From Candidatus Cloacimonadota bacterium (GTDB lineage: Bacteria; Cloacimonadota; Cloacimonadia; Cloacimonadales; WRIO01), in the NCBI GenBank assembly GCA_009777575.1, contig WRLO01000004.1, positions 1 to 64,000 of the forward strand: a stretch of DNA of 64,000 bases, in the 5' to 3' direction. Numbering within the stretch: position 1 is the stretch's first letter; the number at the start of each line of letters is the position of its first letter. The translations under genes were made by a program, and so were the position numbers. Below the pieces are notes generated by a model. It searched no databases, was not told the DNA's origin, and worked only from the letters and a program-made list of their open reading frames with translations. Below, piece after piece: positions 24,805 through 53,168 of the stretch.

Positions 24805-26241
24805 ATGAAAACATCAAAAATCATTTTCCTCTTAATAGGGATTTCATGCCTGTTTCTGCTGATCAATAGCTGCGACAATAAGACTACAGAACCAACAATA
24901 GCAGTTACAGGTGTATCCTTGAATCAAACAACCCTCTCTATGCAAATTGGAGATACTAGAACCCTCACAGCTATCATCACACCTGAAAATGCAACAAACA
25001 AAGGTGTAATCTGGAGTAGCAGTGATGAAAGTGTAGCTACTGTAAATGATACTGGCTCAATCATAGGCATTGCAAAAGGTTCGACACTCGTTACTGCTAC
25101 TACTATTGATGGTGATTTCTCTGCTATTTGTGTCGTAACTGTTGCTTCTAATACGCCCAATATACCCGTAACTGGAGTAGCTCTAAACAAAACAAATACT
25201 TCAATACTTATCGGAAATACAGAAGCCCTCACAGCAATAATCTCACCATTCAATGCTACAAATCAAAATGTATCTTGGTCAAGTAGTAATAGCTCAATAG
25301 CTACAATCTCAGATAATGGTGTTGTAACTGCTATAAATCAAGGCTCTATTACTATCACTGTAACTACTCTGGATGGCGGTTTTACAGATATTTGTCAGGT
25401 TGCTGTGAATCCAGCCCCTACAGCTACATTCATCATCGCTCTCACAACCTCAGATGGTGGCTCTGTCAATGGAGCTACGGTGATTCTGCAAAATCATGTA
25501 GGAGGTGCATATCAAGAGACAGCTACAAGTGCATCTGCCATACTAACTAATATTCCTTTTGGTTCTTATTATTTGATAGTCAATCACTCTGGCTATCATC
25601 CCTTTATCGATGAGACTTTTTCTGTCCAATCGCATGCAGTAAGTCATGCTGTGCATTTAAGAGATATTAGCTTACCATATATAGGGGATATAATCGAGTT
25701 TGGAGCTTACAACTGGCGAGTGCTGGATATCCAAGGTGGACAGGCATTGATAGTAAGTGAAAATATAATAGAGCGGAGGGTTTATCATACATCACAAGCA
25801 GCTATCACCTGGTCAAGGTGTAGTTTGCGAGCATATCTAAATGGTGATTTTTATAATTCGAGTGCTTTTTCAAATGAAGATAGGTCTCGGATAGTTCAAG
25901 TAACAAATGTAAATCTGAATAATCAATGGTTTGGAACGTACGGTGGATTAAATACCCAAGACAGAATATTTCTTTTGAGCATTGCTGAAGTAGTGCAGTA
26001 TTTTGGGGATAGTGGGCAATTGGAAAATAGGCCTCCGGGAGCATCTCATATAAATGACCAATTCAATTCAAATCGGATTGCGACTATTAATGGGTCGGCT
26101 TCTTTTTGGTGGTTGCGTTCGCCTGGTGACAGTACTCATAATGCTATTCGTGTGTACAACGATGGTATCGTCTACCTGAGTGGTAGCTTTGTCAGCAACC
26201 ATAATGGTGGAGTTCGTCCAGCTTTGTGGCTACAGTTGTAG
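24805..26241 (+). CDS. Lipoprotein: two Big_2 Ig-like domains, carboxypeptidase-regulatory/PEGA-like domain, C-terminal DUF6273/C-type-lectin-like domain with hypervariable segment (putative DGR target)
   Basis: Lipobox INSC; Big_2 repeats (VTGVSLNQTTLSMQIGDTRTL); WWLRSPG...GGVRPALWL. Confidence 0.8.
   Translation: MKTSKIIFLLIGISCLFLLINSCDNKTTEPTIAVTGVSLNQTTLSMQIGDTRTLTAIITPENATNKGVIWSSSDESVATVNDTGSIIGIAKGSTLVTATTIDGDFSAICVVTVASNTPNIPVTGVALNKTNTSILIGNTEALTAIISPFNATNQNVSWSSSNSSIATISDNGVVTAINQGSITITVTTLDGGFTDICQVAVNPAPTATFIIALTTSDGGSVNGATVILQNHVGGAYQETATSASAILTNIPFGSYYLIVNHSGYHPFIDETFSVQSHAVSHAVHLRDISLPYIGDIIEFGAYNWRVLDIQGGQALIVSENIIERRVYHTSQAAITWSRCSLRAYLNGDFYNSSAFSNEDRSRIVQVTNVNLNNQWFGTYGGLNTQDRIFLLSIAEVVQYFGDSGQLENRPPGASHINDQFNSNRIATINGSASFWWLRSPGDSTHNAIRVYNDGIVYLSGSFVSNHNGGVRPALWLQL
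26125..26208 (+). other. Putative DGR variable region (VR-A)
   Basis: Hypervariable between near-identical flanks in three paralogues; differences concentrated at codon positions 1 and 2. Confidence 0.7.
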
Positions 26242-26259
26242 TGGTGTATTGCATACACC
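26238..26259 (+). repeat. GTAG + GGTGTAT-TGC-ATACACC hairpin overlapping the stop codon, just after the putative VR-A
   Basis: Perfect 7-bp stem, 3-nt loop; GTAG includes the TAG stop. Confidence 0.8.
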
Positions 26260-26288: not shown

Positions 26289-26495
26289 ATGGCGTAAGCG
26301 ATACGCCACTACGGATTAAAAGGCGTAAGCATTACGCCACTACGGGATAAAAGGCGTAAGCAATACGCCACTACGATATGGGGTCTGAGATAGGGGGTAG
26401 TGACACGGAGATTGCTTCGTGAGGATAGCAAGAAGGAACCTCGCAACGACGGTATTGTCCATTATACACTACAGGCGTAAGCAATACGCCACTAC
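26289..26495. repeat. Cluster of GGCGTAAGCAATACGCCACTAC hairpin repeats
   Basis: Three consecutive units plus one at about 26472-26494. Confidence 0.95.
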
Positions 26496-34434: not shown

Positions 34435-35448
34435 CTATACAAGCACGTATTTCATATTGCCGACACCAATTTTTTCAGCATGAGTCAGTATTTTTCTTCC
34501 TTTATCAAAAATTTTTGACTTAGAATTTTTTTGTAAAACATCAAGACAAGCTGTATCGAGTGCTACAGGGTCAAGACTAGCAAATATTCCCACATTTTCA
34601 GCTTCAAAGTCCATTTTTGAGGAAAAACAATCGCAATCTTTGGTAATATTCAAGACAAAATTGATATATATATTTTTTTTCCCCAATGTAGCCGCAAAGG
34701 CATATTCAGCCATTTTTTCAAAGAAATGATCTGAGTTCCAATCATGATAAATAGCCCCAGTCACGCAAACAGCGATACATTTGGCACATCCTATACACAA
34801 TTGTTTATCGATGTAAGCCTTTTTAAATAGTTTTATGGCATCGGCATCACAATGTTCCGCGCAGACTCCACAGTTAATACATTTACTTTCCAGGACAGTT
34901 GGTAAAGTCTGAGAATGTTGCTCCATTTTTCCACCGCGAGCTGCAAAACCCATACACAAATTCTTTAATGCACCACCAAAACCTGCTAAAACATGTCCTT
35001 TAAAATGGGAACAAATAACAAATTGATTGTAATTTTGAAATTCCAGACCCAATTTACATTTTTTTAGATATTCCTTGTTGATTTCAGCTTCATAATAGCT
35101 TTCCCCAGTTTCTCCATCAGCAATTACTATGGGAACACGGGTAAAACCATGATTATGAGCAAGTTTTAAATGTAGGGTTTTGGTTGTTCTTTGCCCTCGA
35201 TAAAGGACATTGGTTTCAATGAAGCTGGTGTTTACATTTTTTGACTCTAAATAGTCAATAATAGCATCATAAGCTATAGCTGGAACATAAGTCACATTCC
35301 CTTCTTCACCAAAATGAACCTTTAAAGGCACATTATTATCAAATTTAAAATCATTTTCGTCTACAATTTTTTCCAACAAAGACCTAGCGATAGCGCCTAT
35401 TTCTAGAAAATCACTTGTTTTTGTCCCGTAAAAAAACACTTTAGTCAT
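34435..35448 (-). CDS. DUF362 / 4Fe-4S ferredoxin-domain protein
   Basis: CINCGVCAEHCDADAI and CIGCAKCIAVCVTGAI. Confidence 0.92.
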   Translation of the reverse strand: MTKVFFYGTKTSDFLEIGAIARSLLEKIVDENDFKFDNNVPLKVHFGEEGNVTYVPAIAYDAIIDYLESKNVNTSFIETNVLYRGQRTTKTLHLKLAHNHGFTRVPIVIADGETGESYYEAEINKEYLKKCKLGLEFQNYNQFVICSHFKGHVLAGFGGALKNLCMGFAARGGKMEQHSQTLPTVLESKCINCGVCAEHCDADAIKLFKKAYIDKQLCIGCAKCIAVCVTGAIYHDWNSDHFFEKMAEYAFAATLGKKNIYINFVLNITKDCDCFSSKMDFEAENVGIFASLDPVALDTACLDVLQKNSKSKIFDKGRKILTHAEKIGVGNMKYVLV

Positions 35449-35467
35449 ATTTCGTCTCCTTTTTTTA

Positions 35468-36742
35468 TCACTTTACAATAGTCCATTGTGAAAATAATTC
35501 ATCTATCACGATTATTTCTCTGCCAATTTGACTCTTTATTTCTGTCATTGGCACATTATCTATAGACAACATTTCATAATTAAAAATCCCAGAGGAAAAT
35601 ATCGGGTATTCATTGTCGGATAAATCAATCTGAGTTTTTATATCTTGCCAAGTAAGCAAACCTGTGACAGTCACTTCCTCTCCGAAGAAATTATTTTTTA
35701 TTACAGATATTCTGACATTTTTATTTATTAAATTTTTCTGCAATTCCTTTACAATTGGTTCAATAGCGTAGTATCCAGAAATAGAAGTAACAAAAACAGC
35801 ATTCCCTTCCTTATTATCGAAAAGTTTAAAATATTTTTTTTTCAATCTTTTCCAGTTTTCATGAGATTTCCTTATCATCCCAATACCATTTTCTATTTGA
35901 GCATAATCTCCATAATATTCGTCACTTGGAATAGCTTTTTCCGCTTTGATAAAAATTTCATCTGCACAATAAATATACATTCCGTTTTCAGTGACATTTT
36001 GAGACTGTTCTACTTGATTTATCACGGATTCTGCTTCTTCTTTGGAGATTTTTCTCAAAACTTTTAAATTTTCTCGATGTTTTGTCAATCCTATCGGAAC
36101 AATCCCAATAGACAATACATTTTCAAATCTTATCAAATCTAACAAGCATTTAGTTAAAAAATCCTTATCATTAACATCAGGGATCAAAACTATTTGGACA
36201 TGTAACCAGATCCCTGCCTGCTCAAGCATTTTCAAAGACTCCATGATATTAAAATCAATTTCATAACAGAGTATTTGTTTATGAAGTTCTGGGTCTGTAG
36301 TATGAACCGATACATACAAAGGCGAAAGGTGCTGTTTTACAATCTTATCTATATTTTTTTTAGTAAGATTCGTCAAGGTGATAAAATTACCATAAAAAAA
36401 GGAATATATAAAGTCATCGTCCTTAACATACAAAGACTTTCTAAGCCCTGTAGGCATTTGGTCAACAAAGCAAAAAATACAGTTGTTTATACAGGTTTCG
36501 CATTCTGGTAATTCAACCTCATACCCCAAAGGTTTATCGAAATTATTAATCACCTTACAAGATTGATTTTTTTCGCTATCATCCTTGTATTGAACAGTAA
36601 AACGATTTTTTTGTGTATAATACATTATATCCAAAATATCAAAAACAGGCTCATTGTCAATACTGACAATAGTATGGCTTTTTTTGATGGGCAAACTAGC
36701 TGCTATAGAATTTTTTTGAATATTTTGTATTTTAACTGACAT
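35468..36742 (-). CDS. DUF512 radical-SAM-like protein with PDZ-like N-term
   Basis: CETCINNCIFCFVDQMPTGLRKSLYVKDDD. Confidence 0.92.
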   Translation of the reverse strand: MSVKIQNIQKNSIAASLPIKKSHTIVSIDNEPVFDILDIMYYTQKNRFTVQYKDDSEKNQSCKVINNFDKPLGYEVELPECETCINNCIFCFVDQMPTGLRKSLYVKDDDFIYSFFYGNFITLTNLTKKNIDKIVKQHLSPLYVSVHTTDPELHKQILCYEIDFNIMESLKMLEQAGIWLHVQIVLIPDVNDKDFLTKCLLDLIRFENVLSIGIVPIGLTKHRENLKVLRKISKEEAESVINQVEQSQNVTENGMYIYCADEIFIKAEKAIPSDEYYGDYAQIENGIGMIRKSHENWKRLKKKYFKLFDNKEGNAVFVTSISGYYAIEPIVKELQKNLINKNVRISVIKNNFFGEEVTVTGLLTWQDIKTQIDLSDNEYPIFSSGIFNYEMLSIDNVPMTEIKSQIGREIIVIDELFSQWTIVK

Positions 36743-36756
36743 TTTCTATCCTCATA

Positions 36757-38436
36757 CTACTCGATAAACTCCCTCCATATTTCAAAAGCTACCCATTTCA
36801 TGATGATTTCTATAGATTTATCATTGCCTTTTTTAGCTTTCTTGAATATCTTTAAGAGATTTGAAAAATGATAATAAGGTATTTTTTCAGCCTTTTCTAT
36901 CATCAGTCCAATTTCATTTGAGATCAATGAAAAATATTGAAAATTGAGATTGGGATAGTTTGGGTATGTATATTTTACCTCTTTTGGAATAGGAAAATCA
37001 TTGCTATCTTCAGAAAAACTCGAATGTAGTGTCAAACTAGTTTCTATTATCTTATTGTTAGCGAACCTCTCTTGTAAATGGCTACAAGACAATGAATAAA
37101 GCATACCCGGACTAAAAAAATTTCGATATTTATTTAACCAACCCAATCCAACTGCTCTGTTGTTTATATGATGATTGGTGAGCAAGAAATGGTATTTATC
37201 ATAAATCGTTTCTGAAATATACATTTTTCTTGTAAAATCTTCAAAATTTTGCTTTAATCCTTTCACTAAAAAAGGATAAAATTCTTTTCTGAAAAAATGA
37301 TTTTTACTGATATAATTCTTCTTAAAATCAGTAAATGACCTACTTTTAAGTATTTTGAAATATTTTTCCAATCTCTTTATAGGTTCTTTTTCAAACAACC
37401 ATTCAGTTGGATGACTGAGAAAGTATATATCGTTTTGCAGTGATTTAGTTTCAGAATCATAACTCCCAGCGAGATAAAAATATTCAGGTATATCCGCCAA
37501 TCCTGTATGTAAAACATAATCTTTATAAAGTGAAAAAAGATTATTAGAGTCTTGATTATCAGGAATATTTTGGATTCTGAGTTTGCTTAATACATAGTCT
37601 TCAATGTATTCGACAGGGTCAGTAATTTCGTCTTTTATACCCCATTCTTTTGCGTTTTGTGGTTTAAAATGATATAAACCCCATTTCGATTTTTCTTTTT
37701 TACACCATATTGAAAAAGCAAACCTTGCAGAATAATCGGCTTCAAAAGGTATTAAGATAAAATCTTTTTCTTTCAGTTGTAGCTCAAAAGATTTTTTTAA
37801 AGAAAATAAATATTTTTGAGTGTCTGAATCATTACTGGAAATAAATTTTAGCTCTCTATTTACTACTTCTATAGTGTTATTATCGACAGTTAAGGTTGAG
37901 CCTTCTTTTAACATGGATAAATGTCTCAAAAAAGGTCTTTTTTCGAGTCGTAAAGGTAACAAAGCTAGTGCTGACAATGCTGCATAATCCCATTGTTTTT
38001 GTCCCATCAATTGTGAGATATAATGCTGTTTATTGGAGATCATTACATAATCCTCTGTATTTATATAATATACAGGGTAATGACCAAATTTATCACAAGT
38101 AATCTGTAAGAAATTTTCTCTGATTTTCAAAGCTAGATAATGCCCATCTATATCCGAAGGTAAATATTCAAAATTTAAGAGTCTATTCCAATCACTCGCA
38201 TCAGCCTGCGAATAACCTGTTCCCTTTAGTATATAACCTTTGCCAATAACCAATTTTATAGTAGGGTCATCTTCAGTTGCTTTTGAAATAAATAACAATT
38301 CATCCCTACAACTATAACTAAAATAAAACGCAGGTTTTATTATAGTATTTGTAGTTTGTGGATGAACCTGTAAAAACTTCTCAATTTCCCATTCTAAAAA
38401 AGGTTTTTGGCTAATAATGCATAAAAACCAGCTCAT
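36757..38436 (-). CDS. Asparagine synthetase-like protein (degenerate N-terminal GATase region)
   Basis: GHYLALKIRENFLQITCDKFGHYPVYYI resembles the AsnB N-term; no Cys at position 2. Confidence 0.45.
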   Translation of the reverse strand: MSWFLCIISQKPFLEWEIEKFLQVHPQTTNTIIKPAFYFSYSCRDELLFISKATEDDPTIKLVIGKGYILKGTGYSQADASDWNRLLNFEYLPSDIDGHYLALKIRENFLQITCDKFGHYPVYYINTEDYVMISNKQHYISQLMGQKQWDYAALSALALLPLRLEKRPFLRHLSMLKEGSTLTVDNNTIEVVNRELKFISSNDSDTQKYLFSLKKSFELQLKEKDFILIPFEADYSARFAFSIWCKKEKSKWGLYHFKPQNAKEWGIKDEITDPVEYIEDYVLSKLRIQNIPDNQDSNNLFSLYKDYVLHTGLADIPEYFYLAGSYDSETKSLQNDIYFLSHPTEWLFEKEPIKRLEKYFKILKSRSFTDFKKNYISKNHFFRKEFYPFLVKGLKQNFEDFTRKMYISETIYDKYHFLLTNHHINNRAVGLGWLNKYRNFFSPGMLYSLSCSHLQERFANNKIIETSLTLHSSFSEDSNDFPIPKEVKYTYPNYPNLNFQYFSLISNEIGLMIEKAEKIPYYHFSNLLKIFKKAKKGNDKSIEIIMKWVAFEIWREFIE

Positions 38437-38446
38437 TTATTCAGAT

Positions 38447-41400
38447 TTACTCCTTATACTCAAACAGCATCCTTAAATCAGAATTATCAAGGCTTTTTAA
38501 AACTACATCTCCTTGATCTATAATATTGTCAAATAAATCTCTTTTTTTCTTTTGTAAAAGCATGATTTTTTCTTCTACTGAGCCTTTTGTGATCATCTTA
38601 TAAACAAGCACTTTTTTTGTTTGTCCTATTCTATGAACCCTATCTATTGCTTGATTTTCAACCATTGGATTCCACCATGGGTCTACCAGAATCACTGTAT
38701 CGGCAGCTGTGAGGTTGATACCAAAACCTCCTGTTTTAAGACTGATTAAAAAGAGTCTGACTCTATCATTGTTGTTGAAATGGTTTATCACATTCTTTCT
38801 GTCTTTTGTGCCTCCATCCATGTAATCATAAGGAATTTGTAGTTGTTTGACCATTTTTTCGATGAGCCTTAACATCTTTACATATTGACTAAATATCAAG
38901 AGTTTTCTGCCATTTTCGACCGCATCTACAAGTATTTCTTTCAATGTGTTTAGTTTTCCAGAGATATCGGCATCATTCAACCATTCTTCATTGATTAAAC
39001 CCGGATGATCGCAGATCTGGCGAAGTCGTGTGAGAGCCGCTAACATTGTAATATAATTAAAGGCTCCGGTTCCTATTCCTTTATTCAAAGTAGATGAACT
39101 TTTGACCCCTTGCGGTAGGGTTACTATAGATTCTCTTCGTCTTGCATCATGTTTTTGACCAAAAACTTCATTGCGGACAGCCTCTAACACTTGTATATAA
39201 TACCTTTCTTGTTTCTCTGTCATTGTGCAGTAAATAGCCTGTTCTTGCTTATCGGGAAGCTCTATCAAAACATCTTTTTTCTTTCTACGAAGTATAAAAG
39301 GAGCTATATATTGACGAATTTTATCAAGAGCGTTTTCATGTTTTGTGGCTGCAACGCCTTCTTTGGTATACACTTGAGGAGGTAAAACCATATATTCTTT
39401 CATCTTTTTCAATGATGGTAAATAACCCGGCATCAAAAAATCAAACATTGACCACAATTCGACTATGCTATTTTCAAGTGGAGTTCCGGTCATAGCAAGC
39501 TTATGTCTTGCTTTTATTTTTTTTATCGCTTTGGCTCTGAGAGTTATGTGATTTTTTATATGTTGTGCTTCATCAAGGATCATATAGTCAAAGTATATTT
39601 TGTCAAACTCATCCAAATCATTCTGTATCAAATTGTAAGAACATATCACTATTTGCACAGGAACTGTTTTCAAAAGATTTGTCCGAACTTCTTTATTGCC
39701 CTCATAAATTATGTATTTCAATTGAGGATTAAATTTTTCAATTTCTGCTACCCAGTTAAATAACAGTGTTTTAGGGCAAATAATCAAACTTTTTGAATCA
39801 GGTGGCAGATCTGATAAAACAGAAATAGCTTGAAGAGTTTTTCCCAAGCCCATTTCATCTGCTAAAATTCCATTAAGTTTAAAATTTTCAAGCATTTTTA
39901 GCCATTCATAGCCTGCTTTTTGATAAGAACGCATTATAGGTTTTAGGATATAATGAGGGTGTAAAGTATCCTTCAAGGCTCTTTTATGGAGAGCTGAATA
40001 CATATCTTCTAAGTATTTATCACCATATATATTTATTGCTGGATTCAATTTTCTGAGTTCATATATCCAAGGCAATCTATATATTGCCATTTTATGAAAA
40101 TAATCTGCATCTTTTTGGCTTAAATTTAACATACTTTCTATTTCATCAAAAATATCTCGATTTCCTATACGAACGCTTGAACCATCTGGTGCGGTTAAAA
40201 ATTTTGCTCCTGAGGAAAAAAATTGCCGCAGCATATCTTGAGTCAGCTCAATATTGGTAGCTTTATAAACCACTTTATAGGAAAACCAATCTATATTGTC
40301 GTCTGAAGTTATCTCAATTTCTGGAATGAGGTTGATAGTTTTCACAAAATCCTTTTTCAAGTTTTCAGACAAGACGATGTTCCAGCTTGGATGAGCTAGA
40401 TCAAATAAATTGTTTTTGATATATACTATTTCTTGTGCTTTTGTTACTACCCAATCAAACTCGTTAATATCAGTGGGGTTAAAAAAGAGATGGTTTGTTA
40501 CAAAATCACTCACAGTGTATACAAGCTCATCAGGCAAATAATACCATCTATCTGACTCAATAAATGATAGTTTAAATAAATTCATTTTTTCTAAAGCCAT
40601 TGTCAGCGGGATTTTTTTGCCATTGGCATACTCAAAATAGGCATGGATGCTAAGTGGAGAAGGGTCTACTTTGGGTGTGACAGATTCGTTGTTGGAAGCT
40701 TGCATTTCTCTATTTGCAATTGCCAGCGCTTTAAAATGCCCCTGCCCTCTCTTGTCTCTAGGTGACAGTATATCTCGACCATATTCATTTTTCCGTTCTG
40801 TTGTTTCTGAAACACTCAAATCCTCACTTTCTTGCGCATTTTCCTTGTTTGCTGGTTTAGGAGATTTTCTCTTTTTATTGATTAAGAAAAATACCTTAGG
40901 TTCATCATCTGATATTTCAGGAAAGTCAATATTTTCTTCAAAATCGAGATAATTGTTAAATAAAGACAGTTGCTTACCTACTATAGTTTTATAATAAACA
41001 AGCTCTGTTTTTTTGAAAAAGTAGCGACTCTCGAAAATACTAATTACAGTCTCATCATCAAAGGGTAGATTTACTTTGTGTATCGTGTTATTTATCAATA
41101 AATATGTTGATAAATATACAAAAAACTGATGGATTGTATGCGATTCTGAGACAGCTAACCTGAAATTATAGGGGTCTACCTGTGAAATGTAAAAATTCAA
41201 TGACATTGTATCATCAGCAAATTTCAGTTTTTCTCCTGTTTCCATGATTGAAAATTTTGCCTGTATATTTTTAATATAAGGTATTAGACGGACAAATGAT
41301 TCTTTATTTACACTAAAATAAAGGTTTTTTATACCGACAGACCTTTTTTCTATAAACAATGCTTTTATAAAGAGCAATTCGTCTATGGTAAAAAATCCAT

Positions 41401-41950
41401 AAATGTCATCAACATCTTTTATGCTTTGAAGGAGATTATGTTGAGTAATCTTTTCTGGTAATTTTGATAAATAATTGACCAACCTACTGAATGACTCAGG
41501 GTCTAAATTCTTAAAATATATCTTAATTACCTCTTCATCAATTGAGTAAAATCCCTCTATTTGAAAAATTATGTTCTGATATTGTGTCTGGATATACTCA
41601 TTCAATTTACATACTCTTTTTGAAAATACAGTCGTTTGGATAGTCTGCAATTTGTTGGTAGTGATATTGTTATAGGCATATTCAATATACTTGTAGTAAT
41701 ATCCTTTTCTTATATCGTTCGTTAAATCAGCATCATGATGGATTAATTCGTCATCTTGCACATTATAAATGAACCTCACATTGTTAAAACTACTATTTGC
41801 AGTGCTTAATGAAAAGGATAGTATATAATTGTCATCCTGATCGCGGAGGATTTCATACTCAATACTATTTTCATCAATCTTACGGGATAACTGCCTAAAA
41901 TCCCATGAGCTTGATATTTCATGAAAGGTTTTTCTAAATATCTTTGCCAT
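38447..41950 (-). CDS. Snf2/SWI2-family DEAD/DEAH helicase
   Basis: [61 protein letters not shown]. Confidence 0.97.
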   Translation of the reverse strand: [1167 protein letters not shown]

Positions 41951-47676: not shown

Positions 47677-47966
47677 GATAAATGAGCGCAGTCCAAGAGC
47701 CCATATTTTGTCGTTTTTATTGATTTTTATGAACCAATATTTGTAGTGGCGTATTGCTTACGCCTTGTAAAACGCTGATTTTTATGAACCCATATTTGTA
47801 GTGGCGTATTGCTTACGCCTTCTAAAACGCATGTATTCGCATTGAAAATAAGGCGTAAGCAATACGCCACTACAGATATAAGGCGTAAGCAATACGCCGC
47901 TACAGATATGGGGCGTAAGCAATACGCCACTACAGATATGGGTTATCAGACTGCGGTCACAAATCA
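47677..47966. mobile_element. Composite TIR/REP element
   Basis: GGAACAGATAAATGAGCGCAGTCCAAGAGCCC ... GGTTATCAGACTGCGGTCACAAATCAGTTCC with internal GGCGTAAGCAATACGCC units. Confidence 0.8.
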
Positions 47967-48189: not shown

Positions 48190-49101
48190 TTACAGATTTA
48201 GCCACAAAGCTGGACGAACTCCGCCGTGAAAGTTGTTGTTGACAATGATACCAGACACGTTTAGTTCACCAGTGATGCGCACAAGACTAGCGTAAGTAGT
48301 TCTGCTACCAGGCGAACGCAACCACCAAAAAGTAGCCGACCCATCAAAAAAAGTCGCTATCCGATTAGTATTGTATTGATCATCAATACTCCAAGCCCCA
48401 GATGGTCTATATGCCAGCTGTCCACTATCTCCAAAATACTTCACCACTTCGGCAATGCTCAAAAGAAATATCCTGTCTTGAGTATTTGCTCCACTATTTG
48501 TGCCAAACCACTGATTGTTTTCATTGACATTGATTACTTGGACTATCCTCTCTCTGTCAGCATTGCTAAAAGCACTCGAATTGTAAAATTCTCCATTGAG
48601 ATAAGCACGAAGGCTACAATCTGCATAAGTAATATCAGTCGATGAAGTATGATACCCCCTACGCTCTAGGATATTCTCACTCACTACCAATGCTCTATCA
48701 CCTTGTATGTCCAGTATTCGCCATTCATGATCTCCAAACTGGATGATGTTACCGATCCTATCGTCTGAAGTCGATAAATTTACTGAATGACTTACTGTGT
48801 GCGATTGCACAGAAAATGATTCTTGTATAACCGTGTGATAATTTGCATGACTGACTATCACAGAATATGTCCCGAATGGAATATCTGTAAAAATTACCGA
48901 TGAGCTAGTCACTATCCGCTCATAAGAACCACCTACATGATTCTGTAATACTGATGTAGCACCAATTACTGATCCCCCATCCGATGTCGTGAGATTGATG
49001 ACAACTGTGGCTGTGTTTGGCTCTGTAGTTTTTTTGTCACTACATGAGCCTAAAAACAGCATAATAAAAATAGTCAACAAAATAATAGTTTTAATTTTCA
49101 T
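48190..49101 (-). CDS. Lipoprotein: PEGA-like domain + DUF6273/C-type-lectin-like C-term with hypervariable segment (putative DGR target)
   Basis: Start set at MKIKTIILL after GAGGTGG RBS; lipobox LGSC; WWLRSPG...GGVRPALWL. Confidence 0.8.
   Translation of the reverse strand: MKIKTIILLTIFIMLFLGSCSDKKTTEPNTATVVINLTTSDGGSVIGATSVLQNHVGGSYERIVTSSSVIFTDIPFGTYSVIVSHANYHTVIQESFSVQSHTVSHSVNLSTSDDRIGNIIQFGDHEWRILDIQGDRALVVSENILERRGYHTSSTDITYADCSLRAYLNGEFYNSSAFSNADRERIVQVINVNENNQWFGTNSGANTQDRIFLLSIAEVVKYFGDSGQLAYRPSGAWSIDDQYNTNRIATFFDGSATFWWLRSPGSRTTYASLVRITGELNVSGIIVNNNFHGGVRPALWLNL
48223..48309 (-). other. Putative DGR variable region (VR-B)
   Basis: See VR alignment in findings. Confidence 0.7.
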
Positions 49102-49487: not shown

Positions 49488-49684
49488 CATTTATGACTGC
49501 AGTCTGAGAACCCCTATTTTGTCGTTTTTAATTATTTTTATGAGATCATATTTGTATTCGCATCGAAAATAAGGCGTAAGCAATACGCCACTACAGATAT
49601 GGGGCGTAAGCAATACGCCACTACTTTTTGGGCGTAAGCAATACGCCACTACAGATATGGGTTCTCGGACTGCGGTCATAAATG
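49488..49684. mobile_element. Composite TIR/REP element
   Basis: CATTTATGACTGCAGTCTGAGAACCC ... GGGTTCTCGGACTGCGGTCATAAATG. Confidence 0.85.
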
Positions 49685-50072: not shown

Positions 50073-50727
50073 TTACAGATTAAGCCACAAAGCTGGACGA
50101 ACTCCACCAGAGCCGCGGACACCGTAACCAGACACGTAGATGTGACCATAGATGTTCATATTACTAGCGAAAGTAGTACTGATACCAGGCGAACGCAACC
50201 ACCAAAAAGAAGCCGACCCATTAAAAAGTCGCTATCCGATTAGTATTGTATTGATCATCAATATACTGAGCCCCAGATGGTCTATTTGCCAGCTGTCCAC
50301 TATCTCCAAAATACTTCACCACTTCGGAAATGCTCAAAAGGAATATCCTGTCCTGAGTATTTGCTCCGCCATTGGTTCCATACCACTGGTTGTTTTCATT
50401 GACATTGGTCACTTGGACTATCCTGGTTCTATCAGCATTGCTAAAAGCATTCGAATTGTAAAATTCTCCATTTAGATAAGCTCGAAGGCTACAATCCGCC
50501 CAAGTGATTGGCCCAAATTCATGATGATATAGCCTAAATTCAAGTATATTCTCACTCACTACCAATGCTCTACCACCTTGTATGTCCAATATTCGCCATT
50601 CATAAGCCCCAAACTGGATGATGTCACCGACCTTAATATTGTCTGGTTCTGTAGTTTTTTTGTCACTACAAGACCCTAAAAGCAGCATAATAAAAATAGT
50701 CACCAAAATAAAAGTTTTAGTTTTCAT
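50073..50727 (-). pseudogene. Frameshifted short paralogue of the DUF6273-type lipoprotein (putative DGR target)
   Basis: Reads to RIATF* (50221..50784 ORF); after a +1 shift at GCGACTTTTTAATGGG it continues NGSASFWWLRSPGISTTFASNMNIYGHIYVSGYGVRGSGGVRPALWLNL*. Confidence 0.85.
50106..50186 (-). other. Putative DGR variable region (VR-C)
   Basis: See VR alignment in findings. Confidence 0.7.
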
Positions 50728-52834: not shown

Positions 52835-53168
52835 GGATGTATGAGTTCAGTCCGAGAACCCTAATTTTGTCTTTTTTATTTATTTTTATAAGGTCATTTT
52901 TGTAGTGGCATCGAAAATAAGGCGTAAGCAATACGCCACTACGCTATCGGGCTGTCTGTTCATTTGGCGTAAGCAATACGCCACTACAGATATGGGGCGT
53001 AAGCAATACGCCACTACGTTATCGGGCTGTCTGTTCATTTGGCGTAAGCAATACGCCACTACAGATATGGGGCGTAAGCAATACGCCACTACAAAACCGC
53101 TTGTATTAGCACCGAGTATAAGGCGTAAGCAATATGCCACTACAAAAGACGCGGTCATGTATCCGTTC
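52835..53168. mobile_element. Composite TIR/REP element with at least five GGCGTAAGCAATACGCC units
   Basis: GGAACGGATGTATGAGTTCAGTCCGAGAACCC ... GCGGTCATGTATCCGTTCC. Confidence 0.8.

Follow-up and report, generated by a model that had tools for sequence, protein, structure and literature searches.

DUF6273 lipoprotein genes dispersed across a Cloacimonadota genome as probable remote targets of one DGR

Three lipoprotein genes carry a hypervariable block at their 3' ends

The window analyzed here is a stretch of 64,000 nucleotides from a Candidatus Cloacimonadota MAG (contig WRLO01000004.1, positions 1 to 64,000 of the forward strand). Its contig also carries housekeeping genes. The three genes considered here, A, B, and C, lie as follows:

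24805-26241, + strand: gene A, an ORF (Pfam Big_2, E=5.7e-35; DUF6273, E=7.5e-33; lipobox LINSC)
26110-26127, + strand: gene A 5' constant block, TGGTTGCGTTCGCCTGGT (WLRSPG)
26128-26205, + strand: gene A variable repeat, with 17/32 inferred template adenines and 1/52 non-adenine sites altered
26206-26231, + strand: gene A 3' constant block (GGVRPALWL)
48190-49101, - strand: gene B, lipoprotein with DUF6273 (Pfam E=4.3e-30; lipobox FLGSC)
48307-48324, - strand: gene B 5' block
48226-48306, - strand: gene B variable repeat, with 18/32 adenine sites and 2/52 non-adenine sites altered
48200-48225, - strand: gene B 3' block
50073-50727, - strand: gene C, tandem duplicate of the gene B region, frame broken before the variable repeat
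50184-50201, - strand: gene C 5' block
50109-50183, - strand: gene C variable repeat, with 17/32 adenine sites and 1/52 non-adenine sites altered
50083-50108, - strand: gene C 3' block

Gene A encodes a lipoprotein in which Pfam identifies two Big_2 domains, a CarboxypepD_reg/CnaB-like domain, and DUF6273 at the C-terminus. Genes B and C are tandem duplicates (~1.9 kb) with aligned flanks that are 86 to 96% identical. A single surplus T in a T-run of gene C near position 50228, ~15 bp ahead of the 5' block, breaks the reading frame there; such a homopolymer insertion may reflect phase variation or misassembly. The original prediction described shared constant blocks around a hypervariable block in all three genes, and the sequences and positions it quoted are confirmed. 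It also described the differences between A and C as mostly non-silent, which holds, but its count of about 29 had included the ragged tail; in the aligned core, 24 of 84 bases differ, 23 of them at first or second codon positions and one at a third.

The blocks recur in a dispersed family

The MAG holding the window (3.76 Mb in 198 contigs, 91.3% complete, 1.55% contaminated) yields 24 DUF6273 matches, two being pieces of gene C. Fourteen of its genes bear the block: A, B, C, and 11 others, which lie on contigs C169, C19 (two), C69 (two), C104, C12, C11, C51, C29, and C158, the last a decayed copy. The family therefore comprises at least 13 lipoprotein genes and one decayed copy, all ending in DUF6273, and ten further genes beyond A, B, and C share the same constant blocks. 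The variable block sits at the 3' end of the target genes, between constant WLRSPG and GVRPALW codons, and the WLRSPG block of gene A is identical in 11 of the 14 copies in this MAG. By motif, the intact targets that were checked start with a signal peptide and a lipobox cysteine.

A GTAG and hairpin following gene A had been proposed as a DGR feature, a proposal that did not survive the comparison with the other targets, none of which has a comparable hairpin. We found no downstream hairpin or cruciform (7-10 bp GC-rich stem, GRNA loop) common to the 14 repeats. The gene A hairpin was rejected as a DGR cruciform, being unique to A and resembling palindromes of the form GGCGTA..TACGCC. A downstream hairpin has been described for phage-related DGRs and only proposed as a general requirement (PMC3240598); it does not count as an established criterion for DGR targets. 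The palindromes themselves occur in 22 exact-stem copies between positions 513 and 53071 of the window, often in rows at 30-base spacing (for example, at 26291, 47748-47912, 49573-49631, and 52921-53071), and the family is probably a dispersed REP-like repeat.

Variation within the block is confined to adenine columns

We compared 28 gap-free codons across 13 copies of the block, scoring a column as variable if it differs in at least three copies. All 30 variable columns contain A, whereas A is the consensus in only 2 of the 54 remaining columns, and 14 columns in the block show all four letters. In the control region, the 101 gap-free codons that immediately precede the block in these genes, 114 of 133 variable columns contain A. 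Third positions account for 176 of 1500 differences in the block versus 2789 of 5892 upstream. Differences per site amount to 0.028 in the 5' block and 0.295 over the 101 upstream codons. Among copies, the 5' block has almost no silent differences, and the 3' block retains some (GGA/GGG/GGT, CGC/CGT, and GCT/GCA/GCC). Variation is thus restricted to template-adenine positions, as in a DGR variable repeat, and the block of each gene looks like a copy of one template in which adenines are randomized and the other bases kept. With A in every variable column and the blocks recurring in ten further genes, the pattern goes well beyond what chance would give.

Majority rule over these copies gives the inferred template TGG TTG CGT TCG CCT GGT AAC AAT ACT AAT AAC GCT AGT AAT GTG AAC AAC AAT GGT AAC ATC AAC ATG AAT GGT AAC AAT GTC, in which two third-position A calls are probably wrong. 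Because this template was built from the very copies compared with it, an independent comparison is provided only by templates from other genomes.

Templates of complete DGRs in other bacteria predict the variable columns

A homology search for related loci returned 23, two of which hold complete DGRs:

L078, MAG WRKH01000182.1, 1-7342: complete DGR with Avd, TR, and RT
L090, WQXY01000015.1: complete DGR with a DUF6273 target

Both include a bAvd-like gene (PF22296, E about 1e-8) and an RT with a GNQTSQ or GNQASQ motif plus YMDD, and their TR/VR mismatches fall at template A in 17/18 and 23/23 cases for the L078 and L090 pairs, respectively. They share with the present array the DUF6273 domain, the WLRSPG...GVRPALW frame, and the pattern of AAY codons in the template. 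In both, Avd and RT are adjacent. They differ in that the targets lie within a few kilobases of the RT; in addition, their records are labeled as Firmicutes-type bacteria, and their silent sites differ from the blocks of this MAG. L078 packs several DUF6273 genes into 7 kb, some with two DUF6273-like domains.

We aligned the foreign template adenines codon by codon with the block columns of this MAG. The L078 adenines predict the variable columns (26/27 versus 4/57; Fisher p=2e-16), as do those of L090 (25/27 versus 5/57; p=3e-14). Both templates come from other MAGs, and this prediction is independent of any inference from the copies.

Homing appears recent, and no DGR core is found in the assembly

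The original prediction placed a DGR reverse transcriptase and template repeat outside the window, acting in trans, and proposed a genome search for them and for an Avd-like ORF; that search found none of the three in the 91%-complete assembly. Neither the RVT_1 profile nor the L078 RT as query detected a DGR reverse transcriptase (GxxxSQ) there. The only RVT_1 matches are a group II intron RT (C133:1210-4881; GTPQGG, YADD) and, on a 3.9-kb contig, a LINE-like RT that also carries an endonuclease domain (C173:2019-3902), the latter probably eukaryotic contamination of the MAG, and the L078 RT matches only the C133 intron RT, at 27% identity. The L078 Avd has no match in the assembly, in a search whose sensitivity is low for so small a protein. 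The corresponding template repeat would be non-coding and read TGGTTGCGTTCGCCTGGT-(AAY-rich)-GGTGGAGTTCGYCC. No such repeat was found in the assembly: flank patterns and the whole inferred template match the coding copies only, other hits being weak chance matches.

The viral contigs L122-L124, which contain the 5' block, were dismissed as chance matches in unrelated genes with no repeat pair or RT. The DGR of the same-family genome G002 (L062, RT GNLSSQ) was also rejected; G002 is without DUF6273, and no template matching the blocks of this MAG was found near that DGR. Among the viral DUF6273 loci L125-L134, three (L130, 7542-7619; L131, 8118-8195; L132, 2810-2887) hold A-directed repeat pairs of 73-77 bp with most mismatches at A, in which a template-like copy is accompanied by variable ones offset by 509 and 1117 bases. 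No RT was seen on these contig pieces.

The adenine mutagenesis claimed by the original prediction is supported. With no RT, Avd, or template in the assembly, action in trans stays an inference, and a DGR active until recently and now unsampled or lost fits equally well. The original prediction took the lack of an RT and template in a complete genome as evidence against itself; this assembly lacks ~9% of the genome, and a 2-3 kb cassette may just have escaped assembly. We consider it slightly likelier that the core sits on another replicon or in the ~9% that was not assembled than that it was recently lost.

Loss is central to the most serious rival, in which the array is an orphan remnant: RT and template are gone, and the blocks are inherited like any other sequence and are decaying. 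This is a sub-case of our preferred explanation as regards origin and a rival to it only for present activity. The empty search of the assembly favors it, as does the precedent of Treponema denticola, in which the core was found in nine isolates and some isolates keep targets without RT and TR (PMC4891356). The non-adenine changes of three copies (5/52 in L010 and in L020; 13/52 in L022) also speak for decay. Against it stand 11 of the 13 repeats. They carry 0 to 2 non-adenine changes in 52 sites relative to the inferred template, with 16-21 of 32 adenine sites altered, even where gene bodies differ by up to 46%, which implies that homing into the target genes was recent. Furthermore, incompleteness alone could conceal the ~2-3 kb cassette. 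We regard a remnant as a tenable reading with somewhat less than even chances. The repeat of the broken gene C is fresh (1/52), so that either homing is frame-independent or the frameshift arose very recently or stems from misassembly.

Linkage and silent sites argue for templated copying

Gene conversion among the paralogues or from silent donor cassettes of the TprK type would require no reverse transcriptase and would suit a paralogue family with common flanks and homogenized 5' blocks. Conversion should leave linked tracts, but linkage between block columns is absent: pairwise matches show the same variance as after shuffling within columns, both across the 13 copies (p=0.45) and among the 11 freshest (p=0.86). 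The unlinked columns speak against tract gene conversion and against shared ancestry; the blocks would reflect templated copying rather than descent. Conversion also leaves unexplained the presence of A in every variable column, the four-letter columns, and the agreement with foreign templates, and a search of the assembly found no silent donor repeats. We reject gene conversion on the linkage test and assign it only a marginal probability.

Silent sites separate the block from the gene bodies most clearly in the C29 gene (C29:27069, L024). Upstream of the block, it is 54-55% identical to the most distant members of the family, and 42-49% at third positions; inside the block, ~95% of its third positions are common with most copies and 73% with the decayed L010 copy. 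Ordinary divergence of duplicates under positive selection in a ligand-binding loop, plausible where the loop forms the C-terminal portion of a domain reported to be lectin-like, is highly improbable, given these third positions (~95% in the block versus ~45% in the body), the coincidence of variable columns with template adenines of DGRs in other bacteria, and the DUF6273 paralogues lacking the DGR pattern (L002, L005, L012, and L016), which show ordinary divergence that includes third positions.

The original prediction of DGR-type adenine mutagenesis from an AAC/AAT-rich template is thus borne out by the statistics of the columns, the comparison with upstream codons, the linkage test, and the foreign templates. 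We conclude that A, B, and C are almost certainly remote targets of one DGR, together with the other members of a dispersed family numbering at least 13 lipoprotein genes. In the proposed mechanism, template RNA would be reverse-transcribed with errors, and mutagenic homing would paste the resulting copies into the 3' ends of the lipoprotein genes. Homing would homogenize the 5' WLRSPG block; the 3' GVRPALW/stop region, as the putative homing site, would retain silent differences specific to each gene. The clean 5' block and the silent variety of the 3' block fit a copy laid upstream of a retained 3' site, the direction of homing being taken from established DGR biology (PMC3240598), and the gene A 3' block is in the place of the initiation-of-mutagenic-homing site. 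The outcome would be a set of outer-surface lipoproteins that differ in the ligand-binding loops carried on a DUF6273 scaffold. A bolder version, in which one retroelement residing outside this assembly, on a plasmid, phage, integrative element, or other separate replicon, supplies the enzyme and template and keeps at least 13 chromosomal lipoproteins hypervariable, even the broken-frame gene, seems to us improbable.

Structure and origin of the DUF6273 domain

Foldseek matches of a first model were dominated by the CnaB-like domain, and the DUF6273 domain of gene A was therefore modeled alone (mean pLDDT 97.7). Its only PDB match is IgA protease 9qa6 (E=6.5e-7), in which a DUF6273 domain has been named (PMC12402451); many phage and viral DUF6273 proteins are also matched. 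DUF6273 has been described as C-type-lectin-like (PMC10743442), and the putative C-type-lectin assignment here follows that description and was not reproduced by the structure search.

Across 125 genomes of the phylum, DUF6273 is present in this MAG alone and in none of the 124 others. Mis-binning of the window contig is unlikely: its atpA is 79-81% identical to those of three same-family genomes and less so to others, indicating that the contig is native. The distribution of DUF6273 suggests that the lipoprotein family may have been gained laterally and then expanded. The window also holds a four-gene block (34435-41950, - strand) that may be part of a defence island; it includes a large SNF2-type helicase resembling DpdE/ZorD, and BrxP is weakly matched.

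Relation to known systems

A remote DGR target array is a known kind of system, of which this is a large example in a new lineage. LdtA of Legionella is reportedly a DGR-diversified surface lipoprotein, with its target beside its cassette and a different domain. The closest parallel is the TvpA DGR of T. denticola, in which one template serves up to seven dispersed targets, many of them lipoproteins (PMC4891356). The two share adenine-directed variation and dispersed lipoprotein targets, which in T. denticola are C-type-lectin-fold proteins; however, the T. denticola domain is an FGE-sulfatase-type C-type lectin, whereas here we find DUF6273, at least 13 targets sharing one inferred template, and no core. 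DUF6273 targets are known from phage DGRs, namely, the tentaclins (PMC10743442) and Faecalibacterium prophages (PMC11792537). There, too, the variable repeat lies in DUF6273, C-terminally in the Faecalibacterium case, but those targets are phage proteins of phage DGR cassettes and the present ones are chromosomal lipoproteins. Dispersed C-type-lectin genes of cyanobacteria are diversified from a distant template (PMC7517822); they differ in being mostly predicted cytosolic and in having the DGR present in the genome. Remote DGR targets have also been reported in Thiohalocapsa (PMC10907252).

A large metagenome survey of DGRs states that remote targets are invisible to it (PMC8144416), and arrays of this kind are thus likely under-counted. 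The column test used here finds remote targets without an RT or template. The array shows the reach of one DGR, extending to at least 13 dispersed surface lipoproteins, with fresh copies even in genes whose bodies have strongly diverged. With the family absent from the 124 other genomes of the phylum that were searched, it looks as though a hypervariable surface repertoire was gained laterally and then expanded.
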